A stretch of 64,000 bases of DNA from assembly GCA_900466745.1 (NCBI GenBank), contig UBNE01000003.1:186001-250000 (forward strand), read 5' to 3'. The stretch comes from Hyphomicrobiales bacterium (lineage in GTDB: Bacteria > Pseudomonadota > Alphaproteobacteria > Rhizobiales > Beijerinckiaceae). This document shows positions 28,222-48,554 of this stretch, in pieces. How positions within the stretch are numbered: position 1 is the first letter of the stretch; each line of letters opens with the position of its first letter. The position numbers were made by a program, and so were the translations under genes. Below the pieces are notes generated by a model. The model saw only the letters and a program-made list of their open reading frames with translations, ran no database searches and was not told where the DNA came from.

Positions 28222-28290
28222 GAGATCCTCGGCTTCGACGTTTCCGGCAGGGGCTCTTGCGGCCGCCTTGCCATGATCTCATCGTAAACC

Positions 28291-28325: not shown

Positions 28326-28416
28326 CGTCTTGCAGCCCAAGACGGGTATGCGGGTGATAAAATAAAGCCGCGGGCGACCGTGGCCGGCGTCATGAGAGGG
28401 CAGAAAGCGGAAGAAG

Positions 28417-30585: not shown

Positions 30586-31062
30586 GGTCGCTCCCCCCGC
30601 GACATCGAAACGGATGCCGCACACTGTCCTATGCGGGCCGATCCCGATCCGATCCTCGCGGAACCGATCCGCCTCGAACGCCTTTTGGCCGGCAGGGTAT
30701 CGGAATCCTCGACAGGCGCCATGGGTCTCGGCGTGAGTTTCGGCGCGACGTCGTTGCGGCCGGTCCTTTGACGGGCGCGGAGAGAGCGGGCCGCTTGCGG
30801 CCGGTCTCGCCGCAAACGGCAGAGCCGCCTCCAGGAGAATCCGTGCGGTCTCCGCCGCCCGCAGATTCATCTGCGCTTTCTGCGTCACACTCATCGCCCG
30901 ACGGCTTCCATCGCATCTGCGGCGCGGTTGTCCGGTGCCGCCGGCGTTCCGACGCATCACCAGATCGGGGAGGTCGGGCCGCGCGGCGAATTCATCCGAA
31001 GGCAAGCACGCGCCTGTGCGCCTGTCTCCGGTTCTTGAAACCCGTTTCGGTCGCGATGCCGG
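30586..31062. other. Intergenic region upstream of rhaK
   Basis: About 477 bases with no supportable gene. The minus frame of rhaK stays open across it, but the translation is arginine/proline-rich and the kinase has a clear internal start. A GGCCGC-TT-GCGGCC hairpin lies at 30789-30802. The rhaK promoter should be here, but I cannot identify it. Confidence 0.5.
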
Positions 31063-32016
31063 CTAAAGGATCGAAACCCGGTTGTCCCTGAACCAGTTTA
31101 TCGTGAATTCGCGAAAATGCCGCGCCGCCAGGGAAAGCCGGTCGCTGTCGCAAAGCACCCCGATTTCAAGATCGATCGAAGGCTTGAACGGCCGAAACGC
31201 CAGGCGTGGATTGTTCCGCAGGTGAGGCGAGAACGGGCTGATGATGGAGAGGCCGAGCCCTGACGAAACCAGGTTGCAGACAGCTTCGTGCGTGCCGGCC
31301 GTGACACGCATGTCGCGCTCGATATCGAGGCGATCGAAGACATTGTCGGTCCGATAGCGGAAGATCGCGTCCTTGGGAAAGCTGATGAAGGATAGTCCGG
31401 CGAGATCCGCGGCCTGGATGCTGCTCTTGCCGACGAGAGGGTGGTCCACCGGCATCACGCAAACGGCGGGGCTTTCCGCGACCACGTATTTTTCGAGCTC
31501 CGGCGTTTCGTCTCCGCCGGTCGTCAGGCCGATGTCGCATCGCCGTGAAATCAGCCAGTCGACGACCTTGTCGTGCGGGCAGATTTCCAGCGTGATGTTG
31601 ATGCCCGCATGCCTGCGGACGAATTCGGCGATGATCTGCGGCAGCAGGCCGTTGCCGTAGAGACTCACGGCGCAGATGCGGACCTCGCCGACTTCGAGGT
31701 CGCGGATGGCGAGCGCGCGCCGGCTGAGTTCGTCCAGCCCGATGAAGACGCTTTCCACCTCGGCATGCAGCCGCTGGGCATCCGCCGTTGCCACCATGCC
31801 ATGGCGGCGGCGGATGAAAAGGGAGTATCCGAGCGACTCCTGCAGATCGGCCAGCAGCCGGCTGACGGCGGGCTGGGAAATGCCCAACTGCCTGGCGGCC
31901 GCCGTCATGTTGCCGAGCTGCATGACGGCCCTGAACGCTTCGATCTGCCGCGGCTTGAGGCGATGGGGAACGGATCGGGACGACTGCGTTTCGGCGATCG
32001 CCAGAGGCGGCGGCAT
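31063..32016 (-). CDS. LysR-family transcriptional regulator
   Basis: Regulator of about 317 residues. The N-terminal winged helix-turn-helix (RQIEAFRAVMQLGNMTAAARQLGISQPAVSRLLADLQ region) is followed by a periplasmic-binding-protein-like effector domain (about residues 105-300). I prefer the ATG at 32016 (MPPPLAIAE) because AAGGAAG precedes it; the ATG at 32064 would add 16 residues with a weak ribosome site. It follows the enoyl-CoA hydratase-like gene on the same strand and is the only regulator near the organosulfur island, so it probably controls it. Similar to regulators of amino-acid or opine catabolism. Confidence 0.88.
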   Translation of the reverse strand: MPPPLAIAETQSSRSVPHRLKPRQIEAFRAVMQLGNMTAAARQLGISQPAVSRLLADLQESLGYSLFIRRRHGMVATADAQRLHAEVESVFIGLDELSRRALAIRDLEVGEVRICAVSLYGNGLLPQIIAEFVRRHAGINITLEICPHDKVVDWLISRRCDIGLTTGGDETPELEKYVVAESPAVCVMPVDHPLVGKSSIQAADLAGLSFISFPKDAIFRYRTDNVFDRLDIERDMRVTAGTHEAVCNLVSSGLGLSIISPFSPHLRNNPRLAFRPFKPSIDLEIGVLCDSDRLSLAARHFREFTINWFRDNRVSIL

Positions 32017-32106
32017 CTCGATAGCTTCCTTCCGCGAAGCAATGGAATTATTACCTTTGCTCATAACACCGAGGGGTTCCCTGAGCTAGCCGCTCGGCAA
32101 TCCGCT

Positions 32107-32907
32107 TCACGCCGGATAGAGCGGGTTGCTGCGGCTGAGCGGGAGATAGTGCGGCTCTCGCTTCTCGCGAAACGCCGCCAGCGCCTCCTTCGAATCGGCA
32201 AAGCCGGCCATCCTGACGGTCGCCGCCTGCTCGAATTCATAGCCGCTGCGCAGGTCCATCCATTCGATCCGGTCGAGCACGGCCTTGCCGACCCGGACCG
32301 CCGTCGGGCTCATCGCGGCGATGCGCAGGGCGATCCGGTGGGCATGGTCGAGAGGGCTGCCGTCGGCCGCGACGATCACGGCGCCGCCTGCCGCCCGGAG
32401 TTCGCTCGCCGTCAACTGCTCGCCGGTGAAGAACATGCGCCGGACAACCGGCTGCGGCGCAAAGCGGGCGAGGTGGCGCGCCCCGCCCATGACGCCGACG
32501 GTCAGTTCGGGCAGCCCGAAGCGCGCATCGGGAGCGGCGACGATGACGTCGCAGGAGCCGGCGATGGCGAGGCCGGTCCCCAGCGCGACCCCGTGAACGG
32601 CTGCGACCACCGGCACGGCGCATTCGGAGATGGCGAAGAAAGCCTCGCGCACCTGCCACATCCGCTGCCCGCCATTCGCGGAGGTCATCGTGGCGAATTC
32701 GTCGAGATCGTTGCCCCCGCAGAAATGCTTGCCGTCCGCGCAGAGCACGATCGCCCGGATGTCGGCCGCGACGGCATCCACATCGCGGAACAGCGTGGCG
32801 ATTTCCGCGTACATCGGCTGGTCGACCGCATTCACCGGGCCGTTCGCAAGCCGGACCTCGAGAACCCCCGCCTCGGTTCGGATCGTCTTCAGACGCGTGA
32901 ATCTCAT
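32107..32907 (-). CDS. Enoyl-CoA hydratase/isomerase family protein
   Basis: Crotonase-fold protein of 266 residues. The oxyanion-hole segments are HFCGGNDLDEF (about 61-71) and ALGTGLAIAGSCDV (about 106-119). The position of the catalytic glutamate is occupied in GLPELTVGVMGG (about 131-142). It could hydrate or hydrolyse an acyl-CoA made by the AMP-ligase of the neighbouring divergent operon. It is divergent from the C-S lyase gene; the shared gap of 179 bases holds AT-rich promoter-like DNA and repeated TCAATACT. Confidence 0.88.
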   Translation of the reverse strand: MRFTRLKTIRTEAGVLEVRLANGPVNAVDQPMYAEIATLFRDVDAVAADIRAIVLCADGKHFCGGNDLDEFATMTSANGGQRMWQVREAFFAISECAVPVVAAVHGVALGTGLAIAGSCDVIVAAPDARFGLPELTVGVMGGARHLARFAPQPVVRRMFFTGEQLTASELRAAGGAVIVAADGSPLDHAHRIALRIAAMSPTAVRVGKAVLDRIEWMDLRSGYEFEQAATVRMAGFADSKEALAAFREKREPHYLPLSRSNPLYPA

Positions 32908-33015
32908 CAGATTATCCCTCCCGCTGATCCCGGCCGACAGGCGGCAGGGACGACATTCCCGATGCTGCGGCGCCCCCGCCGCGCCTGCCGAACCTAGATA
33001 TAATATAAAATCATT

Positions 33016-33048
33016 TCAATACTCATTGACTGCCTCAATACTATTTCA
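33016..33048. promoter_or_regulatory. Repeated TCAATACT and ATTTCA element before the C-S lyase operon
   Basis: TCAATACT occurs at 33016-33023 and 33035-33042. The second copy begins the 14-base element TCAATACTATTTCA (33035-33048), which resembles TAAATGTGATTTCA at 40041 and AAAATGTTATGTCA at 42453. The region is AT-rich inside GC-rich DNA and separates divergent genes. Candidate LysR binding region. Confidence 0.45.
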
Positions 33049-33086
33049 TAGCCTGCGCCATCGCATCCCTCGAAGGAGAGCCGGGC

Positions 33087-34274
33087 TTGACCCTCGAAAC
33101 CCGAATTGTGACGAGCGGCCGCGACGCAGCGAAGGCGGCCGGCATCGTCAACCCGCCGGTCCACCGGGCCTCGACGGTTCTCTTCTCGACCCTTGCCGCT
33201 CTGCGGGAAGCTCAGAAGGACCCCGTCCGCAACCTGCTCTATGGACGCCTCGGCACCCAGTCGACCTTCGCGCTTCAGGATGCTCTGGCCGAGGTCGAGG
33301 GGGGGTATGCGGCTATCGCCTGCCCTTCGGGTATGGCCGCCATCGCCGTCGCGCTGATGGCGCTGGTCAAGACGGGCGATCACATCCTGGTCGTCGACAC
33401 GGTTTACGATCCGGTTCGCGCCTTCCTCGCCCAGACCATGGCCCGCTTCGGCGTGGAGGTGACGTATTATCCGCCCTCCCTCGGCGGCGACATCGCCGAT
33501 CTGATCCGGCCGGAAACCCGCGTCGTGCTGTGCGAGTCGCCCGGCTCGCACAGCTTCGAGGTCCAGGACGTTCCGGCGATCGCAGCAGCGGCCCATGCCG
33601 CCGGCGCGGTGGTGATGATGGACAATACCTGGGCGACCCCGCTCTATTTCCGGCCCTTCGAGCATGGGGTGGATGTCTCCCTGCAGGCGGCGACGAAATA
33701 CATCGTCGGCCATTCCGATTGCGAGATGGGAGCGATCATCTGCACCGAAGCGGTGTTCCCGGCCATCAAGCAGCAGGCCATGCGGCTCGGCATCTGCGTC
33801 AGCGCCGATGACTGCTATCTCGCGCTGCGCGGGTTGCGCACTTTGGCGGCGCGCATGCCGCGCCACCAGGAAACCGGCCTGGCCCTGGCTCGCTGGTTCT
33901 CGCAGCAGCCAGAGGTCGAGACCGTCCTCCACCCGGCGCTTCCCGGCGCGCCGGGGCACGCGCTCTGGAAGCGCGATTTCCGCGGCGCGAGCGGGCTGTT
34001 CGGCGTCGTCTTCAGGGACGGCGTGAGCGAGGAAGGCATCCGCGCGCTCGTCGACCATCGCCGGCTGTTCGGCATCGGCTTTTCCTGGGGCGGTTTCGAG
34101 AGCCTCATCCTGCCGACCGATCCGCGGAAGCTGCATCCGAACACGTCCTGGCCGTATCAAGGACCGTCGATCCGGATCCATGCCGGGCTCGAAAGCCCGG
34201 ACGACCTGATCGCCGACCTGGCGGAGGGCATGGCCGCCTTGAGGAAGGCCGGCGGAAAGAGCCAGGCGGCATGA
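33087..34274 (+). CDS. PLP-dependent C-S lyase, cystathionine beta-lyase (MetC) family
   Basis: Enzyme of 395 residues of the Cys/Met metabolism PLP family. It should cleave a C-S bond of a cysteine conjugate or sulfoxide to thiol/persulfide, pyruvate and ammonia. The PLP lysine is K204 in AATKYIVGHSD; the tyrosine/arginine loop YGRLGT (52-57) and SGMAA (81-85) are also conserved. The start is TTG at 33087, supported by AAGGAG eight bases upstream. It leads a tight plus-strand operon with the glyoxalase-like, sulfurtransferase, acyl-CoA synthetase and persulfide-dioxygenase-like genes. This makes organosulfur breakdown more likely than methionine synthesis. Confidence 0.87.
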   Translation: MTLETRIVTSGRDAAKAAGIVNPPVHRASTVLFSTLAALREAQKDPVRNLLYGRLGTQSTFALQDALAEVEGGYAAIACPSGMAAIAVALMALVKTGDHILVVDTVYDPVRAFLAQTMARFGVEVTYYPPSLGGDIADLIRPETRVVLCESPGSHSFEVQDVPAIAAAAHAAGAVVMMDNTWATPLYFRPFEHGVDVSLQAATKYIVGHSDCEMGAIICTEAVFPAIKQQAMRLGICVSADDCYLALRGLRTLAARMPRHQETGLALARWFSQQPEVETVLHPALPGAPGHALWKRDFRGASGLFGVVFRDGVSEEGIRALVDHRRLFGIGFSWGGFESLILPTDPRKLHPNTSWPYQGPSIRIHAGLESPDDLIADLAEGMAALRKAGGKSQAA

Positions 34275-35182
34275 GCAGCGCGACGCAAGCCGGAGAGCGG
34301 CCGGGCGATCTTTGGCCGGACCACGTCAATCATTCCGTGCCCGATCTGGAGCGGGCCCGGGATCGCATGGTCGCGCTCGGTTTCCTGGTGACGCCGCGCT
34401 CGGACCAGCTTGCGCCGGATGCCGACGGCAAGCTCGTCCGCACCGGCATGGCCAATCACTGCGTCATGCTCGGGCGCGGCTATATCGAGCTGTCCGGCGC
34501 CATTCTCGACGACACGCCCGCCGTGCGCGGCCTGCGGGATACGCTCGCCCGCCATGTCGGGGTCCATCTGCTGGCGCTGGGGACGACCGACCCTGCGTTC
34601 CAGGCCGAGCGGCTGCCACAGGCCGGCTTCGCGCCCGCCACGTTGATGAACTACCAGCGCCTGGTCGAGGCCGCCGACAGGAGCGAGCAGCTCGCCCGCT
34701 TCACGCTGGCCTTCGCCCCGCGCGAGCTGGTGCCGGAAGCGCGCCTTCTGACGGTCCGCCACGAGACCCCGGAGCTGCTGTGGCAGGAGCGCTGGCTCGG
34801 CCATCCGAACGGCGTGACCGGCCTGCAGGAGGTTGTCTACGCCGCCGCCGACCTGCCGGCCTCGGTGGAACGGCTCTCGCGCTATGTCGGCGTGGAGCCG
34901 CAGCCCGGGACGATCGGGATGGCGCTCCCGCTGGCCCGCGGTCGTTTGAGCGTTCTCCCGGCCGGACAGGCGGCGGCGCTGTTCGCCCCGCTGCCCGGGG
35001 CGCCCTGCACCGCGGGCTATGTGCTCGGTACCGATGACCTGGACGCGCTTGTGCAGTTCCTCAAGGCCAGGAGCGTCGCGCTCTCGGGGCAGGGTGCCGG
35101 CTGGCTCGCGGTTGCCGGCGGCGAGGCGCTCGGCAGCCACATCTATTTCGCAGAACCCGGCGCAAAGCTGCCCTGGCATTGA
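34271..35182 (+). CDS. Glyoxalase-like domain protein (VOC superfamily)
   Basis: Protein of 303 residues with the glyoxalase_3-like arrangement: the opening DHVNHSVPDLERARDRMVALGF matches the first VOC module, and a second module begins near LQEVVYAAADLPASVERL (about 193-210). The metal ligand candidates are H20 in the first module and the late EALGSHIYF segment. Function is unassigned in the family; related proteins occur beside catabolic operons. ATG overlaps the C-S lyase stop (ATGA), so it is translated with it. A role in handling a reactive carbonyl or dioxygenation of the sulfur compound is only a guess. Confidence 0.75.
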   Translation: MSSATQAGERPGDLWPDHVNHSVPDLERARDRMVALGFLVTPRSDQLAPDADGKLVRTGMANHCVMLGRGYIELSGAILDDTPAVRGLRDTLARHVGVHLLALGTTDPAFQAERLPQAGFAPATLMNYQRLVEAADRSEQLARFTLAFAPRELVPEARLLTVRHETPELLWQERWLGHPNGVTGLQEVVYAAADLPASVERLSRYVGVEPQPGTIGMALPLARGRLSVLPAGQAAALFAPLPGAPCTAGYVLGTDDLDALVQFLKARSVALSGQGAGWLAVAGGEALGSHIYFAEPGAKLPWH

Positions 35183-35211
35183 GGCGGCGCGGGTCGAAGA
35201 GGGAGGTCTTC

Positions 35212-36069
35212 ATGGCGAATGCAGGAGTCGGGCCGGTCGTGAGCGCGGCCTGGCTGAAGGCGCATCTCGGCGAGGCGGATCTTCAGGTCATCGACGGGAG
35301 CTGGCATCTGCCGGTCCGCAAGCGCGATGCGGCGGCGGAATATGTCGCCGGCCATATCCCCGGCGCCATCCCGCTCGACATCGATACGGTCGCCGATCCG
35401 GCACCGCCGCCGCCGGGCCGGATGCTGCCCTCGGCCGAGCGCTTTGCCGAGCAGGTCGGGTTGCTCGGTCTCAGGCCCGAGGCCCATCTCGTCGTCTACG
35501 ACGCCGTCGGCATGTACAGCTCGGCGCGGGTCTGGTGGATGTTCAGGACCTTCGGTCACCGGGCGATCTCGGTTCTGGAGGGCGGCCTGCCGGCCTGGAA
35601 CGCGGCAGGCGGGCCGATGGAGTCCGGCGCGCCGAGGCGGCGCGATGCCGTGGCCTGGCCGGTCCGACCCGCCAATCAGGGCGTGCGCGACTGGCGGGCC
35701 GTGCTGCGCAACATCGAGACGCGCGAAGCGCAGCTCGTCGATGTCCGCCCCCCGGAGCAGTTCCGCGGCAGCACGGCCGCGAACTATCCCGGCGTGCGGG
35801 ACGGCCATATCCCCGGCGCGATCAGCCTGCCCCGCAACGAATTCCTGCTTGCCAACGATACGTTTCCGCCGCCGGAAGCGATCGAGAACGCGATCCGCAA
35901 GGCAGGCGTCGACCCGGATCGTCCGATCATCGCCTCCTGCGGCTCCGGCGTGACCGCCTGCATTCTCGCGCTCGCGCTGGAACTGACCGGCCGCCAGCCA
36001 TGCGCGGTTTACGACGGATCGTGGGAGGAATGGGGCCACCGCTCCGATCTGCCCGCGACGACGGATTGA
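35212..36069 (+). CDS. 3-mercaptopyruvate-type sulfurtransferase (two rhodanese domains)
   Basis: Cytoplasmic sulfurtransferase of 285 residues with tandem rhodanese domains (about 8-135 inactive, 160-283 active). The active-site loop is CGSGVTA with C243, the form typical of mercaptopyruvate sulfurtransferases rather than thiosulfate rhodaneses (CRKG). The ATG at 35212 is chosen because GGGAGG lies five bases before it. It would move sulfane sulfur released by the upstream C-S lyase to an acceptor thiol, giving a persulfide for the dioxygenase-like protein three genes later in the island. Confidence 0.88.
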   Translation: MANAGVGPVVSAAWLKAHLGEADLQVIDGSWHLPVRKRDAAAEYVAGHIPGAIPLDIDTVADPAPPPPGRMLPSAERFAEQVGLLGLRPEAHLVVYDAVGMYSSARVWWMFRTFGHRAISVLEGGLPAWNAAGGPMESGAPRRRDAVAWPVRPANQGVRDWRAVLRNIETREAQLVDVRPPEQFRGSTAANYPGVRDGHIPGAISLPRNEFLLANDTFPPPEAIENAIRKAGVDPDRPIIASCGSGVTACILALALELTGRQPCAVYDGSWEEWGHRSDLPATTD

Positions 36070-36082
36070 GGTCGGCAAGGCC

Positions 36083-37657
36083 GTGACGCCTCTGCAACTG
36101 CCTGGTGCCGCGACCGTCCCGGAGCTGCTGCGGAACGGTGCAGGGCGATATCCCGATCAGTTGGCGCTTTCGGCGCGCTCCGTCTCAGGAGCGCGGCTGC
36201 GCCGCAGCTATGCCGGGCTCGTGCGGGACATGGACCATGCGGCGGTCGAACTGGCCTCGCTCGGCCTGGCGGCCGGAGACCGCGCGGCGACCTTCCTGAC
36301 CAACGATGCCGGGTATGAATTCGTCATGACCGCGCTCGGCGCCGTGGCGCGCGGCGCGATCGTGGTGCCGTTCAATACCCGCGCCTCCGACGAAGAGATC
36401 CGCCATGCCTTCGCGCTGACCGAGCCCGGCCTCGTGGTCGTCGAGGCGTCCCACGCGGAAAGGCTTCGCGGCCTTGCTCCTGCGGGAACGCGCCTCGCCG
36501 TCGCCGGCGAAGACGTTTTCGCTTCGGGTCCGGGAGAGGAGGCGCCGTCGAATCCCGGAAGGGGGCCCGGAACTGCGGCGCCTCGCGCCGGCGATATCGC
36601 GGCCCTGCTCTTCACCTCCGGCACGACGGCCCGCTCGAAGGCGGTGATGGCTTCGCATGCCGGCATGATCGCATCGGGGGCCTGCTGCGCGGCGGCGCTG
36701 GGCCTGCGCCCCGGCGACGTCTATCAGGCCGGCTTTCCGGTCTTCACCTCGGCGGCCCTGAACATCGCCTGCATGGCCTGCTGGGTAGCGGGTGCCGGGT
36801 TCTGCCTGGAATCCGTGCTGAACGACGAGGGGCGTCTTGCCGCCATCGCGGCCGAGGGCACCTCCATCTATCATGGCGTACCCTCGGTCCTGGGCTTCAT
36901 GCTCGACAGCTTCGATCCCGCACGGCACGACCTGTCCGGCTTGCGGCGGATCGCCAGCGGAGGCGCGGCCCTGCCGCCGGATCTCGCGGCCCGCCTGGCG
37001 GAAACCTGGCCGCATGCCGACCTCGTCCAGATCTACGGCCTGACCGAAAGCGGCCCGACCGGGACGGTTCTCGCGCCGGAGGAGGCGCAGGCGGGCCGCG
37101 GCTCGATCGGGCGGGCGATGCCGGGCTGCGTGGTCGAGATCCTGGGCGATGACGGGCAGGCGGTCGAAACCGGCCAAACCGGCGAGATCGCCATCACCGG
37201 CCCGGCGGTTGCGGTCGGCTATTTCCGGGATCCCGAAGCGACGCGGAAGGCCTTCTCCGGCAGGCGCGTGCTGACCGGCGACCTTGGCAGGCTCGACGCC
37301 GAGGGCTTCCTTCACTTCGCGGATCGCAAGAAGGATGTGATCAATCGGGGCGGGCTCAAGATCGCTTCCATCGCCGTCGAAGATGTGCTGCACGCGCATC
37401 CGGCGGTGAGCGAAGCGGCTGTCGTCGCCGTGCCGCATGCCAAGCTCGGCGAGGATGTCGGGGCGGCCGTGGTGCTTCGCCCGGGGCAAAGAGCGGACGA
37501 GGCCGAGCTCCGCAGCCATTGCGCCGCTGCGCTCGCCGACTATGCGGTGCCGCGCCGATGGCTGGTCCTCGATAGCCTTCCGCGCAATCCCATGGGCAAG
37601 GTTTTGAAGAACGAGCTGAGGGCGCGTTTCAGCGCGCCCCCCAAACCCGGACGATGA
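36083..37657 (+). CDS. AMP-dependent acyl-CoA synthetase/ligase
   Basis: ANL-family enzyme of 524 residues that activates a carboxylic acid with ATP and CoA. Motifs: phosphate loop LLFTSGTTARSKAV (about 175-188; serine/threonine-rich but lacking the usual final GxPKG glycines), YGLTESG, LTGDLG...DRKKDVINRGG hinge region, and the catalytic lysine in NPMGKVLKNEL. The start is GTG at 36083. It sits between the sulfurtransferase and the persulfide-dioxygenase-like gene (4-base overlap of its stop with a minor ATG). The acid may be the carbon skeleton left after sulfur removal. Confidence 0.86.
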   Translation: MTPLQLPGAATVPELLRNGAGRYPDQLALSARSVSGARLRRSYAGLVRDMDHAAVELASLGLAAGDRAATFLTNDAGYEFVMTALGAVARGAIVVPFNTRASDEEIRHAFALTEPGLVVVEASHAERLRGLAPAGTRLAVAGEDVFASGPGEEAPSNPGRGPGTAAPRAGDIAALLFTSGTTARSKAVMASHAGMIASGACCAAALGLRPGDVYQAGFPVFTSAALNIACMACWVAGAGFCLESVLNDEGRLAAIAAEGTSIYHGVPSVLGFMLDSFDPARHDLSGLRRIASGGAALPPDLAARLAETWPHADLVQIYGLTESGPTGTVLAPEEAQAGRGSIGRAMPGCVVEILGDDGQAVETGQTGEIAITGPAVAVGYFRDPEATRKAFSGRRVLTGDLGRLDAEGFLHFADRKKDVINRGGLKIASIAVEDVLHAHPAVSEAAVVAVPHAKLGEDVGAAVVLRPGQRADEAELRSHCAAALADYAVPRRWLVLDSLPRNPMGKVLKNELRARFSAPPKPGR

Positions 37658-37668
37658 GGGAGGACAGG

Positions 37669-38568
37669 ATGCGCGAGAGCCGGGGAGCGAAGGCAGCGCC
37701 TGCGGTCGACGTCGCCGCCTTCTTCGAGAGCCGCACCGGCAGCCTTCAATATGTCGCAGCCGATCCGCGGACCGGGCGCTGCGCCGTCATCGATCCGGTC
37801 CTCGATTTCGATCCGAAATCCGGGAGCGTCGCGACGACCAGCGCGGACGCGATCCTCGCTCACATCGCCGCGCGCGGCTACACCATCGACTGGATTCTCG
37901 ACACCCACCCCCACGCCGATCACTTCTCGGCCGCGGCCTATCTGCGGCAGCGCACCGGGGCGCCGACCGCGATCGGCGCGCGCGTCACCGAGGTGCAGGA
38001 ACTCTGGAGCGACATCTACAACCTGCCGGATCTGGCGGGGCAGACCGACGGCTGGGATCGGCTTTTCGCGGATGGCGAGCGTTTCACGATCGGGAGGCTC
38101 GAGGCGCGCGTCATCCATTCTCCAGGGCATACCCTCGCTTCGGTGACGTATTGCCTCGCCGATGCCGCCTTCATCCACGATACGCTGTTCATGCCCGACA
38201 GCGGCACGGCCCGCGCCGATTTCCCCGGCGGCAGCGCGGCGAAGCTCTGGGATTCGATCCAGACGATCCTGTCGCTGCCGGACGAGACCCGCCTGTTCAC
38301 CGGGCACGATTATCGCCCGGGCGGACGCGAGGCTCTGTGGCAAAGCACCGTCGCGGAGCAAAAGCGGCTCAACCCGCACATCGCCGGCAAGGGGCGGGAG
38401 GCGTTCATCGCCTTGCGCGAGGCGCGCGACCGCGCGCTGCCGATCCCCCAGCTCATGCTGCAGGCGCTCCAGGTCAATCTGCGTGGCGGGCGCCTTCCAG
38501 AGCCCGAGGCCAATGGATGCCGCTATCTGAAAATTCCGCTCGACGCCTTTCCGACTGCGCGCTGGTAG
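37669..38568 (+). CDS. Metallo-beta-lactamase fold hydrolase, persulfide dioxygenase (ETHE1/Blh)-like
   Basis: Protein of 299 residues of the glyoxalase II/ETHE1 group. Metal ligands: HPHADH (H80, H82, D84, H85), HSPGHT (H154), D171 and TGHDY (H213). ETHE1-type enzymes oxidise glutathione persulfide to sulfite with a mononuclear iron. The length and long insert (DIYNLPD region) fit the Blh/PDO-type proteins. The ATG at 37669 is preceded by GGGAGG; an ATG at 37654 would overlap the ligase stop. Last gene of the plus-strand operon; the convergent flavoenzyme gene follows. Confidence 0.83.
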   Translation: MRESRGAKAAPAVDVAAFFESRTGSLQYVAADPRTGRCAVIDPVLDFDPKSGSVATTSADAILAHIAARGYTIDWILDTHPHADHFSAAAYLRQRTGAPTAIGARVTEVQELWSDIYNLPDLAGQTDGWDRLFADGERFTIGRLEARVIHSPGHTLASVTYCLADAAFIHDTLFMPDSGTARADFPGGSAAKLWDSIQTILSLPDETRLFTGHDYRPGGREALWQSTVAEQKRLNPHIAGKGREAFIALREARDRALPIPQLMLQALQVNLRGGRLPEPEANGCRYLKIPLDAFPTARW

Positions 38569-38633
38569 CATCCGGCGGACGTTCCACGACGATGGGTCGA
38601 GCGGGCGATCACGGGAGCGGCTCCGCGCGCCCT

Positions 38634-39965
38634 TCAGAAGCCGATCGGCCAGTACTGGATCTTCGTGCCGTCACTGAAGCGGCCGAAGCGGAATGGAGAG
38701 GGATCGACACAAGGCTTCGCTCCCTGCACGAGTTCGGCCATCAACTGGCCGGCGGCCGGGCCTAGCCCGAATCCATGGCCTGAGTATCCCGCCGAGACGA
38801 AAAGGCCGGGATGGCTATCGATGCCCGAGATGACGGGGATCGCGTCCGGCGTGGCATCGAGCAGCCCGCCCCAGCTTTCGACGATCCGGGCGTCCCGGAA
38901 CGCCGGAAAGATCGCGTCGAAGCTCTTGCGGGCTCCTTCCAGGACATGGCGTCCCGGTGCAGGGTCATAGACGCGATACTTCTCGAACGGGGTCACCTGG
39001 TCGCCGCGCCAGCGGCGGCGCATGACGAATTCCTCGAGGGAGCGCTTTCCGAGGCGCAGCTTGAGAGAGCTGTGCTCGGAAAACAGGGAGGGCCGGAAGT
39101 CCTTGAAGAAGCGGAAGCTGTCCGGCACCACATCGACCGGATAGCCGGTCCGCATCGACATGTTGTAGCCGCCGTCCAGCCGCTTGCGGAAGCCGAAGCC
39201 GGGGCCCGAGCCGCATCCCGCCAGGCCGGCTTCGATCGGCGCGCTGCGCATGACCTGCGACAGGATCTTGAGCTGGGGGAAGCGCAGGCCGAGATTCCCG
39301 AGGAAGAGGCTCGACCAGCCTCCCGCCGCCAGCACGACCCGCCTGCAGGCGACGCGGCCGCGCTCGGTCACCACGCCCGCGACCCGTCCGCCCTGCATCT
39401 CGACGGTCCGGACGGCGCAGTGCTGAAGGATGACGCAGCCGGCGCGCCGCGCCGCGCTCGCGATCGCCGATGTCGCCAGCGTCGGTTCGGCCATGCCGTC
39501 GCTCGGGGTGTGGAGCGCGCCATAGAAGCGCCGGGTCGCCCCGGGGGCATGGTGCGCGGCCTCCTCCGAGGACAGCACGCGCGTGTCGAGATCGAATTCG
39601 GAGATGCGCGCCAGCCAGCCTCGGTACTTCTCGATATCCGACGCGCCTCCGGCAAAATAGGTGATGCCGGTGACGCGGAAGCCGGTCTCGCCGTCGATCG
39701 CGTCGTTCAATCCGGCCCAGATCTCCATGGCGCGCAGCATCAGCGGCATCTCGCGGTGGTCGCGACCCATTTTCCGGACCCAGCCCCAGTTGCGGCTGGA
39801 TTGTTCGCCGCCGATCACGCCCTTCTCGCAAAGCAGCACGGACACGCCGGCCCGGACGAGGTTCCAGGCGGTGCAGACCCCCATGATCCCGCCCCCGATG
39901 ACGACGACGTCGACAGCGGCGGGCTGTTCGGTATCCGAGAGGACCGGCTGCAGATTCTGGACCAT
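38634..39965 (-). CDS. FAD-dependent oxidoreductase, DAO family
   Basis: Flavoenzyme of 443 residues of the D-amino-acid/sarcosine oxidase-like group. The dinucleotide motif is VVVIGGGIMGVCTAWNLVRAG (about 20-40), followed by SSRNWGWVR. The C-terminal FAD/substrate segment is YSGHGFGLGPAAGQL. It oxidises an amino or N-alkyl group, with the substrate unknown. It is divergent from the BisC/TorZ-like gene with a 116-base AT-rich shared promoter, and convergent with the persulfide-dioxygenase-like gene. A position inside the sulfur island suggests oxidation of the amino moiety of the imported compound. Confidence 0.86.
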   Translation of the reverse strand: MVQNLQPVLSDTEQPAAVDVVVIGGGIMGVCTAWNLVRAGVSVLLCEKGVIGGEQSSRNWGWVRKMGRDHREMPLMLRAMEIWAGLNDAIDGETGFRVTGITYFAGGASDIEKYRGWLARISEFDLDTRVLSSEEAAHHAPGATRRFYGALHTPSDGMAEPTLATSAIASAARRAGCVILQHCAVRTVEMQGGRVAGVVTERGRVACRRVVLAAGGWSSLFLGNLGLRFPQLKILSQVMRSAPIEAGLAGCGSGPGFGFRKRLDGGYNMSMRTGYPVDVVPDSFRFFKDFRPSLFSEHSSLKLRLGKRSLEEFVMRRRWRGDQVTPFEKYRVYDPAPGRHVLEGARKSFDAIFPAFRDARIVESWGGLLDATPDAIPVISGIDSHPGLFVSAGYSGHGFGLGPAAGQLMAELVQGAKPCVDPSPFRFGRFSDGTKIQYWPIGF

Positions 39966-40029
39966 CGCGATCTCCTACCGGGGGGCCACGCTAGCGCATA
40001 AGATATAAACATCAAGAATTTTCTATTCG

Positions 40030-40054
40030 CATTTAAGCCATAAATGTGATTTCA
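40030..40054. promoter_or_regulatory. Inverted repeat and shared 14-base element before the BisC/TorZ-like gene
   Basis: CATTTA at 40030-40035 and TAAATG at 40041-40046 form a 6-5-6 inverted repeat. TAAATGTGATTTCA at 40041-40054 contains AAAT-GTG-ATTT and resembles elements at 33035 and 42453. It lies in the divergent gap with the DAO-type gene, 27 bases before the GTG start. Candidate LysR site. Confidence 0.5.
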
Positions 40055-40081
40055 TAAAAGAACGCATCAGGGAGAGGCGCC

Positions 40082-42370
40082 GTGGCACGCATCCTTCGTT
40101 CGGCTTCGCATTGGGGCGCCTTTCGGATGCAGGTGGAGGATGGCCGACTCGTCGGGGTCCAGCCCTTCGAGCACGATCCCCATCCGACGCCGCTGATCGA
40201 GGCATGGGCCGAAATGGTCACCTCGCCCCTGCGGATCGCCGCCCCTTTCGTGCGCCGCGGCTGGCTGAACGGGGACCGCGGCGCGAAGCGCGGCGAGGAT
40301 GACTATGTCGCGGTCGATTGGGACAAGGCGCTCGACCTGGTTGCCGGAGAGCTCGGGCGAGTCAGCAGCCATCACGGCAACCAGGCGATCTTCGGCGGCT
40401 CATACGGGTGGTCGAGCGCCGGCCGGCTGCATCACGCGCGCACATTGACGCATCGCTTCCTCAATGCGATCGGCGGGTTCACCGGCCAGGTCACCAATTA
40501 CAGCTACGGCGCGGCCATGGCCTTCCTGCCGCGGGTGCTCGGCAACGCCGAAGCCATCGGGGCCTTGCTGACCGGGTGGGACGAGATCTGCACGAATGCG
40601 GACGTCATGCTCGCCTTCGGAGGCATTCCCGAAAAGAACTGGGAAGTCATTTCCGGCGGCTTCGGCCGGCATCTCTATCCCGAGCATCTGCGGCAACTCG
40701 CCGAGTCCCGCGTCAGGGTCGTCAATATCTCGCCGTTCAGGCGCGATTTTCCCGAGGGCTATCCGGCGGAATGGGTCGCGATCCGCCCCAATACCGACGC
40801 CGCCCTGGTCATGGCGCTGACCCAGATCCTGTTCGCCGAAGGCCTGGAAGATACAGCGGCGATCGATCGGCTGACCGTCGGCTTTCCCGCCTATGTCGCC
40901 TATCTCAACGGCAAGAGCGACGGCGTCGTCAAGGACGCGGCGTGGGCGGAAGGGATCACCGGGGTGCCGGCACAGGCCATCGTCGCGCTCGCGCGCAGCC
41001 TGGCGGGCAAGAAGGTCATGCTGACGGCAGCGTGGAGCCTGCAGCGGGCCCGGCATGGCGAGCAGATCTATTGGGCGATCGCCGCGCTCGCCGCCGCGCT
41101 GGGGCAAATCGGTCAGCCGGGATGCGGTTTCGCCTTCGGCTACGGCTCGATCAACGCATTGGGAAATCCCCGATACGAGACGCCGATCTCGGGCCTCTCG
41201 ACCGGGCGCAATCCGGTCGGGATCGCCATTCCGGTGGCGCGCGTCGCGGATCTGCTGCTATCGCCCGGCGAGACGATCCGGTTCAACGGCAGCAGCCTGA
41301 CCTATCCCGACATCAGGCTGGTCTATTGGGCCGGCGGAAATCCCTTCCACCATCACCAGGATCTGAACCGGTTGCGGCGCGCCTTCCGGAAGCCTGAAAC
41401 GGTCATCGTTCAGGAGCCGTTCTGGACATCGACGGCCCGCCACGCCGACATCGTCCTTCCGGCGACGACCCCCGTCGAGCGCAACGACATCGGCGGCTCG
41501 TCACGCGACGCCTTCGTCCTCGCCATGCACCAAGGCATCGCGCCCGTCGGCCAATCCCGGAACGACTACGACATCTTCGCCGATTTGGCGGAACGCCTGC
41601 AGTCGCGTGAAGCGTTCACCGAGGGGCGCGACGAAACCGGCTGGCTGCATGTGATGTGGGACAGATGCCGCGCGGCGCTGGGACGCCGCAGCATCGAGGC
41701 GCCCGATTTCGACCGCTTCTGGGAAGATGGATACTTCCGCGTCCCGGAGCCGCCGGCCGCCTATACCATGTATCAACGCTTCCGCGAGGATCCCGATGGT
41801 GCGCGGCTCGACACCGCCTCCGGCCGGATCGAGGTCTTCAGCCCGTCTGTGGCCGCGATGGAGGATCCGGAACAGCCCGGCCACCCGGTCTGGCGCGACC
41901 CCGAGGAATGGCTCGGGGCGGATCTGGCGAGACGCTACCCCTTGCACCTCCTGACGCCGCAGCCGCCGCGGCGCCTGCACAGCCAGATGGAAGCCAGCCG
42001 TCACAGCCGCGCCGGCAAGCGGCATGACCGGGAGGTCGTGACCCTGCACCCGGCCGATGCGCGCGCGAGGGGAATCGGTGATGGCGACATGGTGCGCATC
42101 TACAATGCCCGCGGAGCCTGCCTCGCTTGCGCCGAACTCGACGACGGCCTGCTGCCGGGCGTGGCGCGCCTGCCGACGGGGGCGGGCTTCGATCCGCAGG
42201 ACGGGTATCTCGACGCCTCGAGCAACGCCAACGTGCTGACGCTCGACAAGGGGACCTCGCAGCTCGGACAGGGATGCGCGGCGCAATCCTGCCTGGTCGA
42301 GGTCGAGCGCTTCGACGGTCCTCTCCCGGCGCTGTCGATCTTCGCGCCTCCGCCGCTGGGGGCCGCGTAG
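40082..42370 (+). CDS. Molybdopterin-dependent S/N-oxide reductase, cytoplasmic BisC/TorZ type
   Basis: Molybdenum enzyme of 762 residues of the DMSO reductase family that contains biotin-sulfoxide, methionine-sulfoxide and TMAO reductases. There is no signal peptide or N-terminal iron-sulfur cysteine set, so it should act in the cytoplasm with a bis-MGD cofactor. GGSYGWSSAGRLHH holds the expected molybdenum-ligating serine (S112). LVYWAGGNPFHHHQDLNRL (about 419) and a C-terminal cofactor-binding domain (about 620-755) are conserved. The start is GTG at 40082 with GGGAG upstream. It is followed by a Dpp-type importer, suggesting reduction of an imported sulfoxide or N-oxide. A paralogue lies at 57601-59913. 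Confidence 0.9.
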   Translation: MARILRSASHWGAFRMQVEDGRLVGVQPFEHDPHPTPLIEAWAEMVTSPLRIAAPFVRRGWLNGDRGAKRGEDDYVAVDWDKALDLVAGELGRVSSHHGNQAIFGGSYGWSSAGRLHHARTLTHRFLNAIGGFTGQVTNYSYGAAMAFLPRVLGNAEAIGALLTGWDEICTNADVMLAFGGIPEKNWEVISGGFGRHLYPEHLRQLAESRVRVVNISPFRRDFPEGYPAEWVAIRPNTDAALVMALTQILFAEGLEDTAAIDRLTVGFPAYVAYLNGKSDGVVKDAAWAEGITGVPAQAIVALARSLAGKKVMLTAAWSLQRARHGEQIYWAIAALAAALGQIGQPGCGFAFGYGSINALGNPRYETPISGLSTGRNPVGIAIPVARVADLLLSPGETIRFNGSSLTYPDIRLVYWAGGNPFHHHQDLNRLRRAFRKPETVIVQEPFWTSTARHADIVLPATTPVERNDIGGSSRDAFVLAMHQGIAPVGQSRNDYDIFADLAERLQSREAFTEGRDETGWLHVMWDRCRAALGRRSIEAPDFDRFWEDGYFRVPEPPAAYTMYQRFREDPDGARLDTASGRIEVFSPSVAAMEDPEQPGHPVWRDPEEWLGADLARRYPLHLLTPQPPRRLHSQMEASRHSRAGKRHDREVVTLHPADARARGIGDGDMVRIYNARGACLACAELDDGLLPGVARLPTGAGFDPQDGYLDASSNANVLTLDKGTSQLGQGCAAQSCLVEVERFDGPLPALSIFAPPPLGAA

Positions 42371-42452
42371 AGGCTCAGCGTGCTCCGCAGCGGGGAGGGG
42401 AAGAGGATGAATTGGCCTTGACATAAATCATATCTTGCCAGCTAAATCTGCA

Positions 42453-42466
42453 AAAATGTTATGTCA
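42453..42466. promoter_or_regulatory. Shared 14-base element before the peptide-type binding protein gene
   Basis: AAAATGTTATGTCA, followed by TAAAAG, closely matches the sequence before the BisC/TorZ-like gene (TAAATGTGATTTCA then TAAAAG), and both are followed by GAACG. A possible TTGACA -35 lies at 42418-42423. It is 16 bases before the chosen start. Confidence 0.5.
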
Positions 42467-42482
42467 TAAAAGGGGAACGAGG

Positions 42483-44087
42483 ATGAGCAGCTTTGGCCTG
42501 AACCGCCGTCATCTGCTTCTGGCAGGTGCGGCAATGTCTCTCGACATGAGCCTTCCCGCCGCCCTTGGCGCCGCGCCGCGGCGCGGCGGAATCCTGACTG
42601 CGGTGCTCTGGCCCGCGCCCCAGACGCTGACCGCCGCGGCGACCACGGCAGGCACCGAAATGCTGGTCAGCGCCAAGATCTTCGACGGGCTTTGCGGCTA
42701 TGATTTCGACATGCGGCCCCAGCCCTTGCTCGCCGAGAGCTGGGACATCAGCGCCGATGGCCTGCGCATGACGTTCAATCTCCGCAAGGGCGTGCGCTGG
42801 CACGATGGCACGCCGTTCACCAGCAAGGATGTCGCGTTTTCGCTGCTCAAGGTGTGGAAGGTCCTGCATGGGCGGGGGCGTTCCACGTTCGCCGATGTCA
42901 CGGAGGTGCAGACACCCGACGACAACACGGCGGTCTTCGTGCTGAAACGCCCGGCGCCGGCCATCATGAAGGCGCTGTTCTCGGCGGAATCGCAGATCCT
43001 GCCGGCTCACCTCTACGACGGCACCGACATTCTGCAGAACCCGTTCAATCTGAAACCGGTCGGGACCGGGCCCTACAAGTTCGTCTCCTTCGAGCGCGGC
43101 GACAATCTCGTGCTGGCGCGCAACGAGGACTACTGGGACAAGGAGCTGCCCTATGTCGACCGGTTCGTGTTCCGTTTCGTTCCCGACGCGGCGACGCGCG
43201 CCGCCATGCTGGAATCCAGCCAGGCACAGATCGTCCCGAACGGGCTTCTGAACGCTCCCGACATCACACGGCTGGGCAAGCTGCCCGATATCGAGCTGGA
43301 AAGCCGCGGTTACGAGCATTCCTGCGGCATGCAGCTCATGGACTTCAACCTGGACAACCCGCATCTGGCGAATCTCAAGGTGCGCCAGGCGCTCGCCCAC
43401 GCGATCGACCGCAACTGGATCCTGCGCAATGTCTGGAGCAATTTCGGCAAGGCGGCGACCGGGCCGATCCACGTCAAGCAGACCGATTTCTATACGACCG
43501 AGGGCGTGCCCGCCTATCCGTACGACATCAAGAAGGCCGAAGCGCTGCTCGACGAGGCGGGTTTCAAGCGCGGCGCCGGCGGCGTCCGCTTCACCATCAC
43601 CATCGATCCGCTCCCTTATGGCGACGAGCCGCTGCGCGCCGCGGAATACATTCGCGAGCAATGCCGCAGGATCGGCATCGCGATGACGGTGCGCACGCAG
43701 GATTTCGGCGCCTTCGTCAAGCGCGTCTACACGGATCGCGATTTCGACATCAACATCGTCTCGGCGAGCACGACGGCCGATCCGACGATCGGCGTACAGC
43801 GCTTCTACTGGTCGAAGAACTTCATCAAGGGCGTGGCGTTTTCAAACGGCTCGCACTACGCCAATCCCGCGGTGGACGCGCTTCTGGAAGCGGCCCAGAC
43901 CGAGCTCGACCCGTCCAAGCGCCGCGATCTCTTCGTCAGGTTCCAGCAGATCGCGATGGCCGACCTGCCGTCGCTGCCGCTGGTCTTCAACGATCGCGTG
44001 ACGGTCACCCGCAAGACGCTGCGCGACCATACGGTGGGCGGCGTCGGCCCGTTCGACAGCCAGTCCAAAGCCTGGCTGGCGGCCTGA
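42483..44087 (+). CDS. ABC transporter substrate-binding protein, family 5 (peptide/opine type)
   Basis: Exported binding protein of 534 residues (SBP_bac_5). The N-terminus has LNRRHLLLAGAA, a twin-arginine-like or Sec signal, cleaved near ALGAAP. Typical blocks follow: PLLAESWDISADG, RKGVRWHDGTPFTSKDV, NPVGTGPYKF-like KPVGTGPYKF and the YDIKKAEALLDEAGF motif. The ATG at 42483 is supported by AGGGGAACGAGG. The family binds peptides, opines, nickel-ligand complexes and glutathione. With the two permeases downstream it should import the substrate of the adjacent reductase and C-S lyase pathway. Confidence 0.9.
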   Translation: MSSFGLNRRHLLLAGAAMSLDMSLPAALGAAPRRGGILTAVLWPAPQTLTAAATTAGTEMLVSAKIFDGLCGYDFDMRPQPLLAESWDISADGLRMTFNLRKGVRWHDGTPFTSKDVAFSLLKVWKVLHGRGRSTFADVTEVQTPDDNTAVFVLKRPAPAIMKALFSAESQILPAHLYDGTDILQNPFNLKPVGTGPYKFVSFERGDNLVLARNEDYWDKELPYVDRFVFRFVPDAATRAAMLESSQAQIVPNGLLNAPDITRLGKLPDIELESRGYEHSCGMQLMDFNLDNPHLANLKVRQALAHAIDRNWILRNVWSNFGKAATGPIHVKQTDFYTTEGVPAYPYDIKKAEALLDEAGFKRGAGGVRFTITIDPLPYGDEPLRAAEYIREQCRRIGIAMTVRTQDFGAFVKRVYTDRDFDINIVSASTTADPTIGVQRFYWSKNFIKGVAFSNGSHYANPAVDALLEAAQTELDPSKRRDLFVRFQQIAMADLPSLPLVFNDRVTVTRKTLRDHTVGGVGPFDSQSKAWLAA

Positions 44088-44090
44088 GCG

Positions 44091-45071
44091 ATGTCGGGCA
44101 GCCCCGGCCTGTCCTACTTCCTGCGCCGCCTGTCGCAGGCGGTGCTCGTCATGTTCGTGGTCGTGCTCGGCAACTTCCTGCTGATTCGGCTCGCGCCCGG
44201 CGACCTGGTCGACGTCCTCGGCGGGACGACCGACCTCTCGCCGGAGCAGGCGCTCGCCCTGCGCCAGCGCTACGGCCTCGATCAGCCGCTCCTGATGCAG
44301 TTCCTGCGCTATGCCGGCAACCTGCTGCATTTCGACCTCGGGTTTTCTCCCCGGCAGGGCGCACCCGTCGTCAATGTGCTGCTCGAGCGCCTGCCGACGA
44401 CGCTGGCCCTGGTCTTCCTGTCGCTTTTCCTGTCCGTGGCGATCGGCACCGCCGTCGGCGTTCTTGCCGCCCGCCGGGCCGGGACCGTCGCCGATTTCGG
44501 GCTGTCGCTGGTGGTCTTGCTGTTCTATGCGACGCCGTCCTTCATCATCGCCCTGCTGCTTATTCTCGGCTTCTCGGTCTATCTGCCCTGGCTACCTTCC
44601 GCGGGCATTTCCACGCCGGGGCTGGATCTGGAAGGGTTCGCGAAGCTCCTCGACATCGGGCGTCACTTCATCCTTCCCGTCATCGCCCTGTCGACCTTCT
44701 ACACCGCCATCTACGGGCGCCTGAGCCGCGCCGCCATGCTGGAGGTCCTGTCGCAGGATTTCATCAGGACCGCCCGAGCCAAGGGCGTGCCGGAACGCAG
44801 CCTGCTCTGGCGCCACGCCCTGCGGAATGCGCTCATGCCGATCGTGACCATGGCCGGCCTGCAGGTGAGCTCGCTTCTGGGCGGCGCGGTCCTGATCGAG
44901 ACCGTCTTCGGCCTGCCCGGCATAGGCCGCACCGCCTTCGACGCGGTGATGGAGCGCGACACCAACATGCTGCTCGGCGTTCTCTTCATGTCGTCGCTGG
45001 GCGTCGTCTGCGTGAACCTTCTGGTCGATCTGATCTACCGCCTGGTCGACCCGCGCGTAGAGCTCGCTTGA
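44091..45071 (+). CDS. ABC transporter permease, DppB type
   Basis: Inner-membrane permease of 326 residues, six helices. The N-terminal segment is SYFLRRLSQAVLVMFVVVLGNFLLIRLAPGD and the cytoplasmic loop motif is EVLSQDFIRTARAKGVPERSLLWRHALRNALMPI region (about 220-255). It starts three bases after the binding protein stop. It pairs with the DppC-type protein downstream. Confidence 0.93.
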   Translation: MSGSPGLSYFLRRLSQAVLVMFVVVLGNFLLIRLAPGDLVDVLGGTTDLSPEQALALRQRYGLDQPLLMQFLRYAGNLLHFDLGFSPRQGAPVVNVLLERLPTTLALVFLSLFLSVAIGTAVGVLAARRAGTVADFGLSLVVLLFYATPSFIIALLLILGFSVYLPWLPSAGISTPGLDLEGFAKLLDIGRHFILPVIALSTFYTAIYGRLSRAAMLEVLSQDFIRTARAKGVPERSLLWRHALRNALMPIVTMAGLQVSSLLGGAVLIETVFGLPGIGRTAFDAVMERDTNMLLGVLFMSSLGVVCVNLLVDLIYRLVDPRVELA

Positions 45072-45102
45072 AACAATCGCCGAAAGCGGATGGGGAACGG
45101 AT

Positions 45103-45936
45103 ATGAGGCGGACATTCAAGGCGCTGCTGAAGCATCCGAGCGGCCTCGTCGGTCTTGTCCTCCTGGCGGGGATCCTGATCATGGCCGCCAGCGCCGGCAC
45201 GGCGTATCCCGAAGGCCCGTGGCCGATGGACGGCACGCCGACGCTGTGGCCGGGAGAGGAGCGGGCCTATCTCCTGGGCACGGATGCGATGGGGCGCGAC
45301 CTTTTGGCAGGCCTCCTCTACGGGGCGCGGGTGTCCCTCGCGATCGGGCTTGCCGCCACGGCTGTCGCCCTGCTCGTCGGCGTTACCGCCGGCGCTCTCG
45401 CCGGCTACCATGGCGGCTGGATCGACGATGCTCTGATGCGCTTCACGGACGCGATGCAGACCATCCCCTCCTTTCTCTTCGCCGTGGTGATCGTCGGGGT
45501 GCTGACGCCGTCGCTGCTGACGATCATCTGCTCGATCGCGCTGGTGTCCTGGCCGACCGTCGCCCGGCTCGTCCGCGCCGAGTTCCTGCGCCTGCGCAGC
45601 CTGGATTTCGTCCTGGCGTGCCGGACGATGGGCATGTCCGATGCGCGGATCATTTTTCGCCAGATCCTCCCGAATTGCGTGGCGCCCATCATCGTCGCCT
45701 CCTCGGTGCTGGTGGCGACCGCCATCATCATCGAGGCGAGCCTCTCCTTCCTCGGCCTGGGGGATCCCAACGCCATGAGCTGGGGGACCATGATCGGCGC
45801 CGCGCGGCCGTCCTTGCGCACGGCGTGGTACATGACGCTGGTGCCGGCGGCGGCGGTCGTCGCGACGGTACTGGCGCTCAACTTGATCGGCGACGCCTTG
45901 AACGATGCGCTCAATCCAAGGCGGCGGGAACGCTAG
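45103..45936 (+). CDS. ABC transporter permease, DppC type
   Basis: Inner-membrane permease of 277 residues. The opening HPSGLVGLVLLAGILIM is typical of DppC/OppC proteins, followed by LLGTDAMGRDLLAGLLYGARVSL and the loop motif FVLACRTMGMSDARIIFRQILPN (about 167-189). Partner of the DppB-type permease. No DppD/DppF ATPase follows: the next gene is a convergent SDR, so the ATPases must be encoded elsewhere. Confidence 0.93.
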   Translation: MRRTFKALLKHPSGLVGLVLLAGILIMAASAGTAYPEGPWPMDGTPTLWPGEERAYLLGTDAMGRDLLAGLLYGARVSLAIGLAATAVALLVGVTAGALAGYHGGWIDDALMRFTDAMQTIPSFLFAVVIVGVLTPSLLTIICSIALVSWPTVARLVRAEFLRLRSLDFVLACRTMGMSDARIIFRQILPNCVAPIIVASSVLVATAIIIEASLSFLGLGDPNAMSWGTMIGAARPSLRTAWYMTLVPAAAVVATVLALNLIGDALNDALNPRRRER

Positions 45937-46713: not shown

Positions 46714-46760
46714 GTCGGTTCTCGCTTCAGATGGGAAAGGGATGGCGACGGCCGCGGCGC

Positions 46761-47717: not shown

Positions 47718-47792
47718 GGCTGGTTTCTCGGGCGGTCGAATCGGGAGGCGGGAGGTGATGGCGATGGCGGAGGCTGCGGCGACGGCGTCGCG

Positions 47793-48479: not shown

Positions 48480-48554
48480 TGCCTCATCTTCCCTGGTCAG
48501 AATGCCGTTCCATCGGCGCGGCGGGGCCGCGCCTCGCCCGTGCTCCGACCCTGC

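Follow-up and report, generated by a model that had tools for sequence, protein, structure and literature searches.

Do the genes at positions 31063-45936 of this 64,000-nucleotide stretch of a Hyphomicrobiales contig (UBNE01000003.1, assembly GCA_900466745.1; hereafter the window) work together on an organosulfur compound, or do they only lie side by side? The original prediction had named a LysR-type regulator, a crotonase-fold protein, a MetC-type lyase, a glyoxalase-like protein, a sulfurtransferase, an acyl-CoA synthetase, an ETHE1/Blh-like protein, a DAO flavoenzyme, a BisC-type molybdoenzyme and a Dpp-type importer, and family scans and translations place every one of these families in the region, in compact blocks. 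The families form a real unit, more than chance would bring together, because their orthologues cluster in other genomes and because an operator-like site is shared within the unit. With moderate confidence, we read the region as one accessory catabolic unit whose substrate would be an S-oxidised thioether, either an amino acid or a small conjugate.

The gene of the LysR-type regulator (31063..32064, minus strand; PF00126/PF03466), the proposed regulator of the whole unit, points leftward, as does the crotonase-fold gene just upstream of it (ECH, 32107..32907, minus strand; PF00378), whose membership is uncertain. Five plus-strand genes follow, encoding a MetC-type C-S beta-lyase (CBL, 33087..34274), a Glyoxalase_3 two-module VOC protein (GLX, 34271..35182; PF13468), a 3-mercaptopyruvate-type sulfurtransferase (TST, 35212..36069), an AMP-forming acyl-CoA synthetase (ACS, 36083..37657; PF00501/PF13193) and an ETHE1-type persulfide dioxygenase-like protein (37654..38568), spaced with these starts by -4, +29, +13 and -4 bp. 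The gene of the DAO-family flavoenzyme (38634..39965, minus strand; PF01266) is divergent from that of the BisC-family molybdenum S/N-oxide reductase (40082..42370, plus strand), and the latter is followed rightward, at the right end of the unit, by genes for a family-5 solute-binding protein (SBP, 42480..44087, plus strand; PF00496) and two importer permeases, B (44091..45071, plus strand; PF00528/PF19300) and C (45103..45936, plus strand; PF00528). A codon-usage gene call agreed on the genes but moved some of their starts, and several long open reading frames (ORFs) in other frames (e.g. 32994-34181 on the minus strand, 35019-36086 and 38811-40001 on the plus strand) gave no Pfam or NCBIfam match.

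Related units and genomic setting

The original prediction would have been refuted if homologues of these genes never clustered anywhere else. They do cluster: a plasmid from the Rhodobacterales carries eight of them together, and within the window's own order eight lie together in genome G029 and seven in genome G729. The plasmid, pPABY2 of Salipiger abyssi, is annotated with a DAO protein, a VOC protein, a sulfurtransferase, metC, a LysR regulator, a molybdopterin oxidoreductase, two ATPases, two permeases and a binding protein, and its eight matches share 43-61% identity with the window proteins. Across the three related units the orthologues of LysR (54, 47 and 50%), DAO, the MetC-type lyase, BisC and the importer fall within 47-68% identity, and a sulfurtransferase orthologue (43-44%) occurs in two of the three. 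The constant core consists of LysR, DAO, lyase, BisC, importer and a PF13468 protein, usually with the sulfurtransferase.

A partial version, DAO-SBP-GLX-ACS at 54-59% identity (59% for ACS), reaches the end of a contig from a Hyphomicrobiales metagenome-assembled genome (L035), where gamma-glutamyltransferase-like and quinone-oxidoreductase-like ORFs precede it by inspection. SBP itself is 52-57% identical in the related units and L035. In three further genomes (G763, G751 and G244) BisC and the importer form a single run at 49-57% identity (ATPases compared with those of Salipiger). In a tree, the BisCs of the four clusters form one group (93/93); with those of these three genomes added, they are set apart (100/99) from the host's second BisC and from four more. 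The DAOs of the five clusters likewise group together (99/99). An SBP was found at E<=1e-100 in 79 of 397 genomes of the order sample, and at 53% identity or more in six, namely the host, G029, G729, G763, G751 and G244.

The unit is accessory, because its LysR was found at E<=1e-60 in only one of 67 genomes of the genus, which is the host itself. In the class sample it was found at E<=1e-55 in two of 385 genomes, the host and G417, and ACS at E<=1e-90 in one of 385; these searches scored the first candidates per genome (3 for ACS and SBP, 5 for LysR in the class, up to 32 for LysR in the genus), and absences hold at that sensitivity. The G417 protein (37% identity) was rejected as an orthologue, its neighbours resembling by inspection a sarcosine-oxidase-type cluster. 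Genome G796 keeps seven genes of the right flank (45967-53371) at 90-94% protein identity, and past the short-chain dehydrogenase/reductase (SDR) gene it carries, exactly at the window unit's end, a different permease/FAD-enzyme/LysR cassette (L255, G796:C352:1-20000, from 7296; right junction compared). Because G796 has the same right flank with another cassette beside it, the unit's place looks like a cassette-exchange site.

Both flanks hold sugar-like genes. A sugar-type SDR/PfkB/FucA block starts at 45967 on the right, and on the left an aldolase/SDR fusion, a DeoR regulator and an FGGY-type kinase lie at 26107-30624, which we take to be rhamnose-type sugar genes. GC content, taken per 2 kb, ranges from 64.6 to 70.8% within the unit, similar to the flanks. 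No mobile-element mark was noticed in the unit, although no search was aimed at such marks, and the window holds no tRNA. Further away, window positions 1-6800 contain a cbb3 oxidase block with about 77% DNA identity to annotated ccoN/ccoO/ccoP/FixH/P-type ATPase genes of rhizobial plasmids.

GLX was also tried as a marker for wider searches and dropped, its relatives at 26-42% identity being common; only L035, among the 80 of 156 GLX relatives that were kept, had DAO, SBP, GLX and ACS together (tblastn with E<=1e-8 and query coverage of 40% or more). Contigs of sizes 82026, 10838, 9978 and 9247 may be common to LysR and GLX relatives, as matching sizes alone suggest for four of the eight near GLX relatives (P0002-P0009). 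None of the 120 crotonase relatives listed out of 928 had one of those contig sizes, and the crotonase is not supported as a proven member. Several other arrangements were seen around GLX relatives. A BisC-like gene (47%) lies about 5 kb past GLX in L045, L058 and L085, and L089 has weak SBP (26%) and ETHE (32%) matches. In L208, L209, L210, L212, L214 and L215, most of them chosen for this feature, a Glyoxalase_3 protein (26-31% to GLX) adjoins a related peptide-type importer, and G681 and G746, which belong to the window's genus, show the same pairing.

A shared operator-like site

A 17-bp site is present in three promoter gaps of the window unit and recurs beside BisC in G029 and G729. In the window it lies on the minus strand in the ECH/CBL gap (site A, 33035..33051, score 20.6), the DAO/BisC gap (site B, 40041..40057, 22.1) and the BisC/SBP gap (site C, 42453..42469, 21.5). 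Site C falls within the longest ORF of SBP (start 42435), yet precedes the ATG at 42480. The site was obtained by expectation maximisation (EM) on five gaps, with a score of 80.6 against a mean of 61.8 and a maximum of 65.8 over 12 shuffles, in which 3-base blocks were moved and 60 starts were used, against 120 for the real data. The regions had been inspected by eye before the motif run, and EM was run on two region sets and two widths, the five-gap, 17-bp result being the one used. With all eight regions the score was 103.1 against a shuffle maximum of 86.9, but the Salipiger and L035 sites were poor.

When each site was left out in turn, every held-out 17-mer was the best non-training match in its source. 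Each window site came third among 127968, with only the other two window sites, kept in training, ahead of it, and the G029 and G729 sites ranked first of 39770 and of 26168. After the three sites, the next-best score of the five-site model in the window was 9.5; three of the 24 window gaps longer than 60 bp exceed this value, namely those of the unit, and the other 21 are without a site. The model reached at most 7.6 in other DNA of the host genome (133,455 bases) and 16.4 in 248 other loci (2,882,346 bases, partly overlapping), while random AT-rich 200-mers reached 12.4 in 4.55% of cases and 20 in 0 of 2000. L035, which was outside the training set, scored 13.9 between DAO and SBP and 12.4 in the region upstream of DAO, and these values are only suggestive because the best score over the 248 other loci was 16.4. 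The gap upstream of SBP scored 14.6 in G751 and 8.1 in G763; the value of 0.2 for G244 comes from another gap, permease B having been taken for SBP. From the company that the regulator keeps, LysR is the candidate binder of the 17-mers, and the unit is probably LysR-controlled and apparently co-regulated.

Enzymes and proposed route

Family membership supports the earlier view that the MetC-type lyase, the mercaptopyruvate-type sulfurtransferase and the ETHE1 protein would act on sulfur. CBL scores 495.5 bits against the equivalog model TIGR01324, above its cut-off of 365.9, and aligns throughout with E. coli MetC (1cl1), keeping the pyridoxal phosphate (PLP) lysine together with Tyr56, Arg58, Tyr111, Ser339, Trp340 and Arg372, which we take to be active-site residues of the E. 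coli enzyme. TST is a two-domain rhodanese (PF00581) with a CGSGVTA loop, and at 235.1 bits falls just short of the NF008557 cut-off of 250. The ETHE1 protein had been described as ETHE1/Blh-like with an HxHxDH motif. The ETHE1 part is indeed present, with the motif kept as HPHADH and full-length matches to 4ysk (294.9 bits), presumably a persulfide dioxygenase, and to 9g8t (313.3 bits), but the N-terminal sulfurtransferase part of Blh is absent: the protein matches NF040641 (Blh) at profile positions 138-423 only, with 528.8 bits against a cut-off of 625. TST might supply the missing sulfurtransferase part.

BisC has TIGR00509 as its best NCBIfam match (898.2 bits over profile positions 1-767 of 772), short of the curated cut-off of 1017.55, and its nearest solved reductase is the DMSO reductase 1eu1 (622.8 bits, residues 6-757 of 762); no export signal was seen in it by eye. 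The nearest solved relative of DAO, a member of a broad family, is the L-amino acid deaminase (LAAD) 5fjm (residues 14-431, 250.7 bits). GLX is predicted to be a two-module VOC protein (predicted local distance difference test score, pLDDT, 92.5). The host genome holds a second lyase (47%), a second ETHE1 (67%) and a second BisC (48%), and because of these separate copies the enzymes of the unit look dedicated to it. The second BisC-like gene lies outside the window on the same contig, about 49 kb left of BisC (L249 7029-9353, G000:C33). One sulfite-oxidase-family match was found in the host genome.

The Dpp-type importer of the original prediction is represented by SBP and two Dpp/Opp-type permeases, but the window operon has no ATPase gene. 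The importer operons of Salipiger, G029 and G729 do include ATPases, those of G029 and G729 being 56-65% identical to Salipiger's. The host genome has 21 oligo_HPY matches, and the stretches covering 12 of them were compared; these six stretches (L244-L248 and L250) also hold permease matches. Outside the clusters, 13 loci have an SBP at 43% identity or more. L241 and L243 supplied marker proteins, and six of the other 11 contain a match at E<=1e-20 to a luciferase-like (LLM) monooxygenase, an SfnB-like protein, a flavin reductase or a sulfonate-binding protein, against none of nine loci with an SBP at 42% or less. In several of the six the binding protein is closer to a Variovorax sister than to that of the window, and five of the nine had been chosen for adjacency of SBP and a GLX relative. 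Gene neighbourhoods of this kind hint, weakly, at a sulfur-starvation setting for the importer's sister clade.

On these families, SBP and the two permeases would import an S-oxidised compound, using ATPases from elsewhere, and once it is in the cytoplasm the BisC-type enzyme would reduce its S-oxide. Cleavage of the C-S bond would fall to the MetC-type lyase, with or after deamination; DAO would deaminate the amino acid, turning cysteine into mercaptopyruvate. TST would then accept the sulfane sulfur, the persulfide would be oxidised to sulfite by the ETHE1 protein, and ACS would turn the remaining acid into a CoA thioester that the crotonase would handle. Of the chains considered, this one employs the most parts of the unit. 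The observations behind it are the gene content, the clustering of orthologues, the common operator-like site and the active-site motifs that are conserved where alignments were made; every reaction, the order of the reactions, the pairing of regulator and site and the substrate are what we infer.

No pathway built from this set of genes is known to us or turned up in the literature searched, although parts of the set resemble known systems. The Blh/bigR operon also pairs a sulfurtransferase with an ETHE1-type dioxygenase, and the two jointly oxidise sulfide to sulfite (PMC5823870); it does so in one bifunctional protein under BigR, whereas the window unit has a separate two-domain rhodanese, a lone ETHE1 protein, a LysR regulator and a catabolic setting. 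CoA activation with a crotonase-family protein is shared with the 3,3'-thiodipropionate (TDP) route of Variovorax paradoxus TBEA6, in which the acid, a thioether, is believed to be activated with CoA before it meets a crotonase-family protein, Ech-20 being stabilised by TDP-CoA (PMC6370202). That route uses a 3-mercaptopropionate dioxygenase and an acyl-CoA-dehydrogenase-type desulfinase (PMC6370202), and the genes of the unit, the only ones searched for these two families, include no member of either. Conversely, as far as the available part of that account goes, the route has none of the PLP lyase, sulfoxide reductase and peptide-type importer of the window unit (PMC6370202). The window BisC is in the same molybdoenzyme family as E. 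coli BisC, a cytoplasmic biotin/methionine sulfoxide reductase (PMC12096835), and would likewise be cytoplasmic; unlike it, the window enzyme shares a gene cluster with an importer of its own, with a C-S lyase and with a flavoenzyme that resembles a deaminase.

Alternative readings and significance

Several findings weigh against a single catabolic unit. The crotonase and ETHE1 genes are absent from the related units of Salipiger, G029 and G729 as fetched, and lie within the unit only in the window. These two members may be local additions. However, G763, G751 and G244, all of one genus, do have an ETHE1 gene (67%) at a distance of about 3 to 7 kb from their run of BisC and importer genes. In G763 that gene adjoins a SulP-like ORF by inspection. 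No sulfurtransferase was found in the fetched stretch of G729, the lyase tree does not join the window lyase to the other cluster lyases against the host's second MetC, and the 17-mer was not found in the Salipiger unit (best score 6.9). The window importer lacks the two ATPases of a DppABCDF-type set of five (SBP, two permeases, two ATPases), and no ATPase above 51.5% identity to those of Salipiger or G729 was found in the 12 of 21 oligo_HPY sites compared or in L126 and L127. BisC-family enzymes accept N-oxides too. What stands of the original scheme of import, reduction, cleavage, sulfur oxidation and CoA activation is its sulfur families, their clustering and their shared site; a constant crotonase and ETHE1 and a complete importer were not borne out, and the cysteine-conjugate sulfoxide that it named is no more than a candidate substrate.

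The region might instead hold two neighbours, with BisC and the importer serving an S- or N-oxide and the lyase, sulfurtransferase, ACS and ETHE1 genes forming a separate operon for disposal of cysteine or persulfide. The runs in G763, G751 and G244 fit this, as no lyase, DAO or sulfurtransferase was found with them, but Salipiger, G029, G729 and the window each carry both halves together, and within the window each half has the operator-like site in front of it. We consider two separate neighbours unlikely.

The unit exists in two versions. Version A (Salipiger, G029 and G729), which the original prediction had not foreseen, carries genes for an isochorismatase-type hydrolase, two PuuE-like proteins (PSD1 and PSD2) and an amidase, and in G029 and G729 the core was found together with these and a VOC gene. 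Version B (the window and L035) has GLX and ACS, with crotonase and ETHE1 added in the window. Because the two versions share the core and differ in having either the hydrolases or the CoA ligase part, they suggest that the molecules differ between versions, with the core acting on the part that bears sulfur and the modules on the opposite part. The substrate could instead be a sulfur heterocycle, or a thioether that carries a cyclic amide or ureide (biotin, for instance, or a cyclic imide bearing a thioether). Version A would open the ring by its PuuE-like hydrolases and amidohydrolase, while the window version would handle a related acid via CoA. The PuuE-like proteins, isochorismatase-family protein and amidases of the Salipiger unit, with relatives in G029 and G729, point this way, and the nearest named solved relative of the isochorismatase-type protein is N-carbamoylsarcosine amidohydrolase. 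However, although the PuuE allantoinase is the nearest characterised relative of PSD1 and PSD2, the Salipiger proteins score only 120.6 and 92.7 bits against TIGR03212 (PuuE), far under its cut-off of 424.6, and a search of the host genome at E<=1e-30 found no relative of PSD1. Moreover, the isochorismatase-type gene and two PuuE-like genes recur as a triple beside carboxylic-acid/CoA genes in L237, L238 and L240 (Comamonas, Burkholderia plantarii and Acidiphilium plasmids), where none of the genes close by is named as a lyase or BisC. We judge a substrate of this cyclic amide or ureide kind improbable. The triple itself is possibly an imide or half-amide pathway, and the PSD pair also occurs without the triple in Agrobacterium.

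A broader form of this idea would be modular salvage, in which a conserved core (S-oxide importer, reductase, C-S lyase, flavoenzyme, usually a sulfurtransferase, and one LysR) is combined with exchangeable modules that deal with the remainder of the molecule, by CoA ligation in the window and by PuuE-like hydrolysis of a cyclic amide in version A, the latter pointing to a sulfur-bearing cyclic ureide or imide, e.g. biotin or the cysteine thioether of a maleimide-type tetrapyrrole fragment. We know of no bacterial gene set that opens biotin's sulfur ring or the thioether of such a fragment, and regard the proposal as decidedly speculative. Least likely of all, the substrate would be an N-oxide or a sulfur-free amine, with BisC as N-oxide reductase, DAO as amine or amino acid oxidase and the lyase eliminating another group in beta position: TorA-type models do score BisC highly (654.4 and 626.8 bits, under their cut-offs) and the DAO family is broad, with kin beside hydantoinase-type genes on the Agrobacterium plasmid pTiBo542, but a sulfurtransferase and a persulfide dioxygenase are hard to account for without sulfur, and the nearest solved reductase is a DMSO reductase.

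A single unit for an S-oxidised thioether compound is the reading that we prefer. BisC-family sulfoxide reductases are usually treated as repair or respiratory enzymes. Here, a BisC-type reductase is tied to an importer and to C-S-cleaving and sulfur-disposal enzymes, by synteny in two orders and by an operator-like site in one. If the reading proposed here is true, it would give BisC-family reductases a catabolic role, together with a regulator, an operator and an operon that can be tested, and with Salipiger abyssi as a named carrier in which the substrate can be sought.

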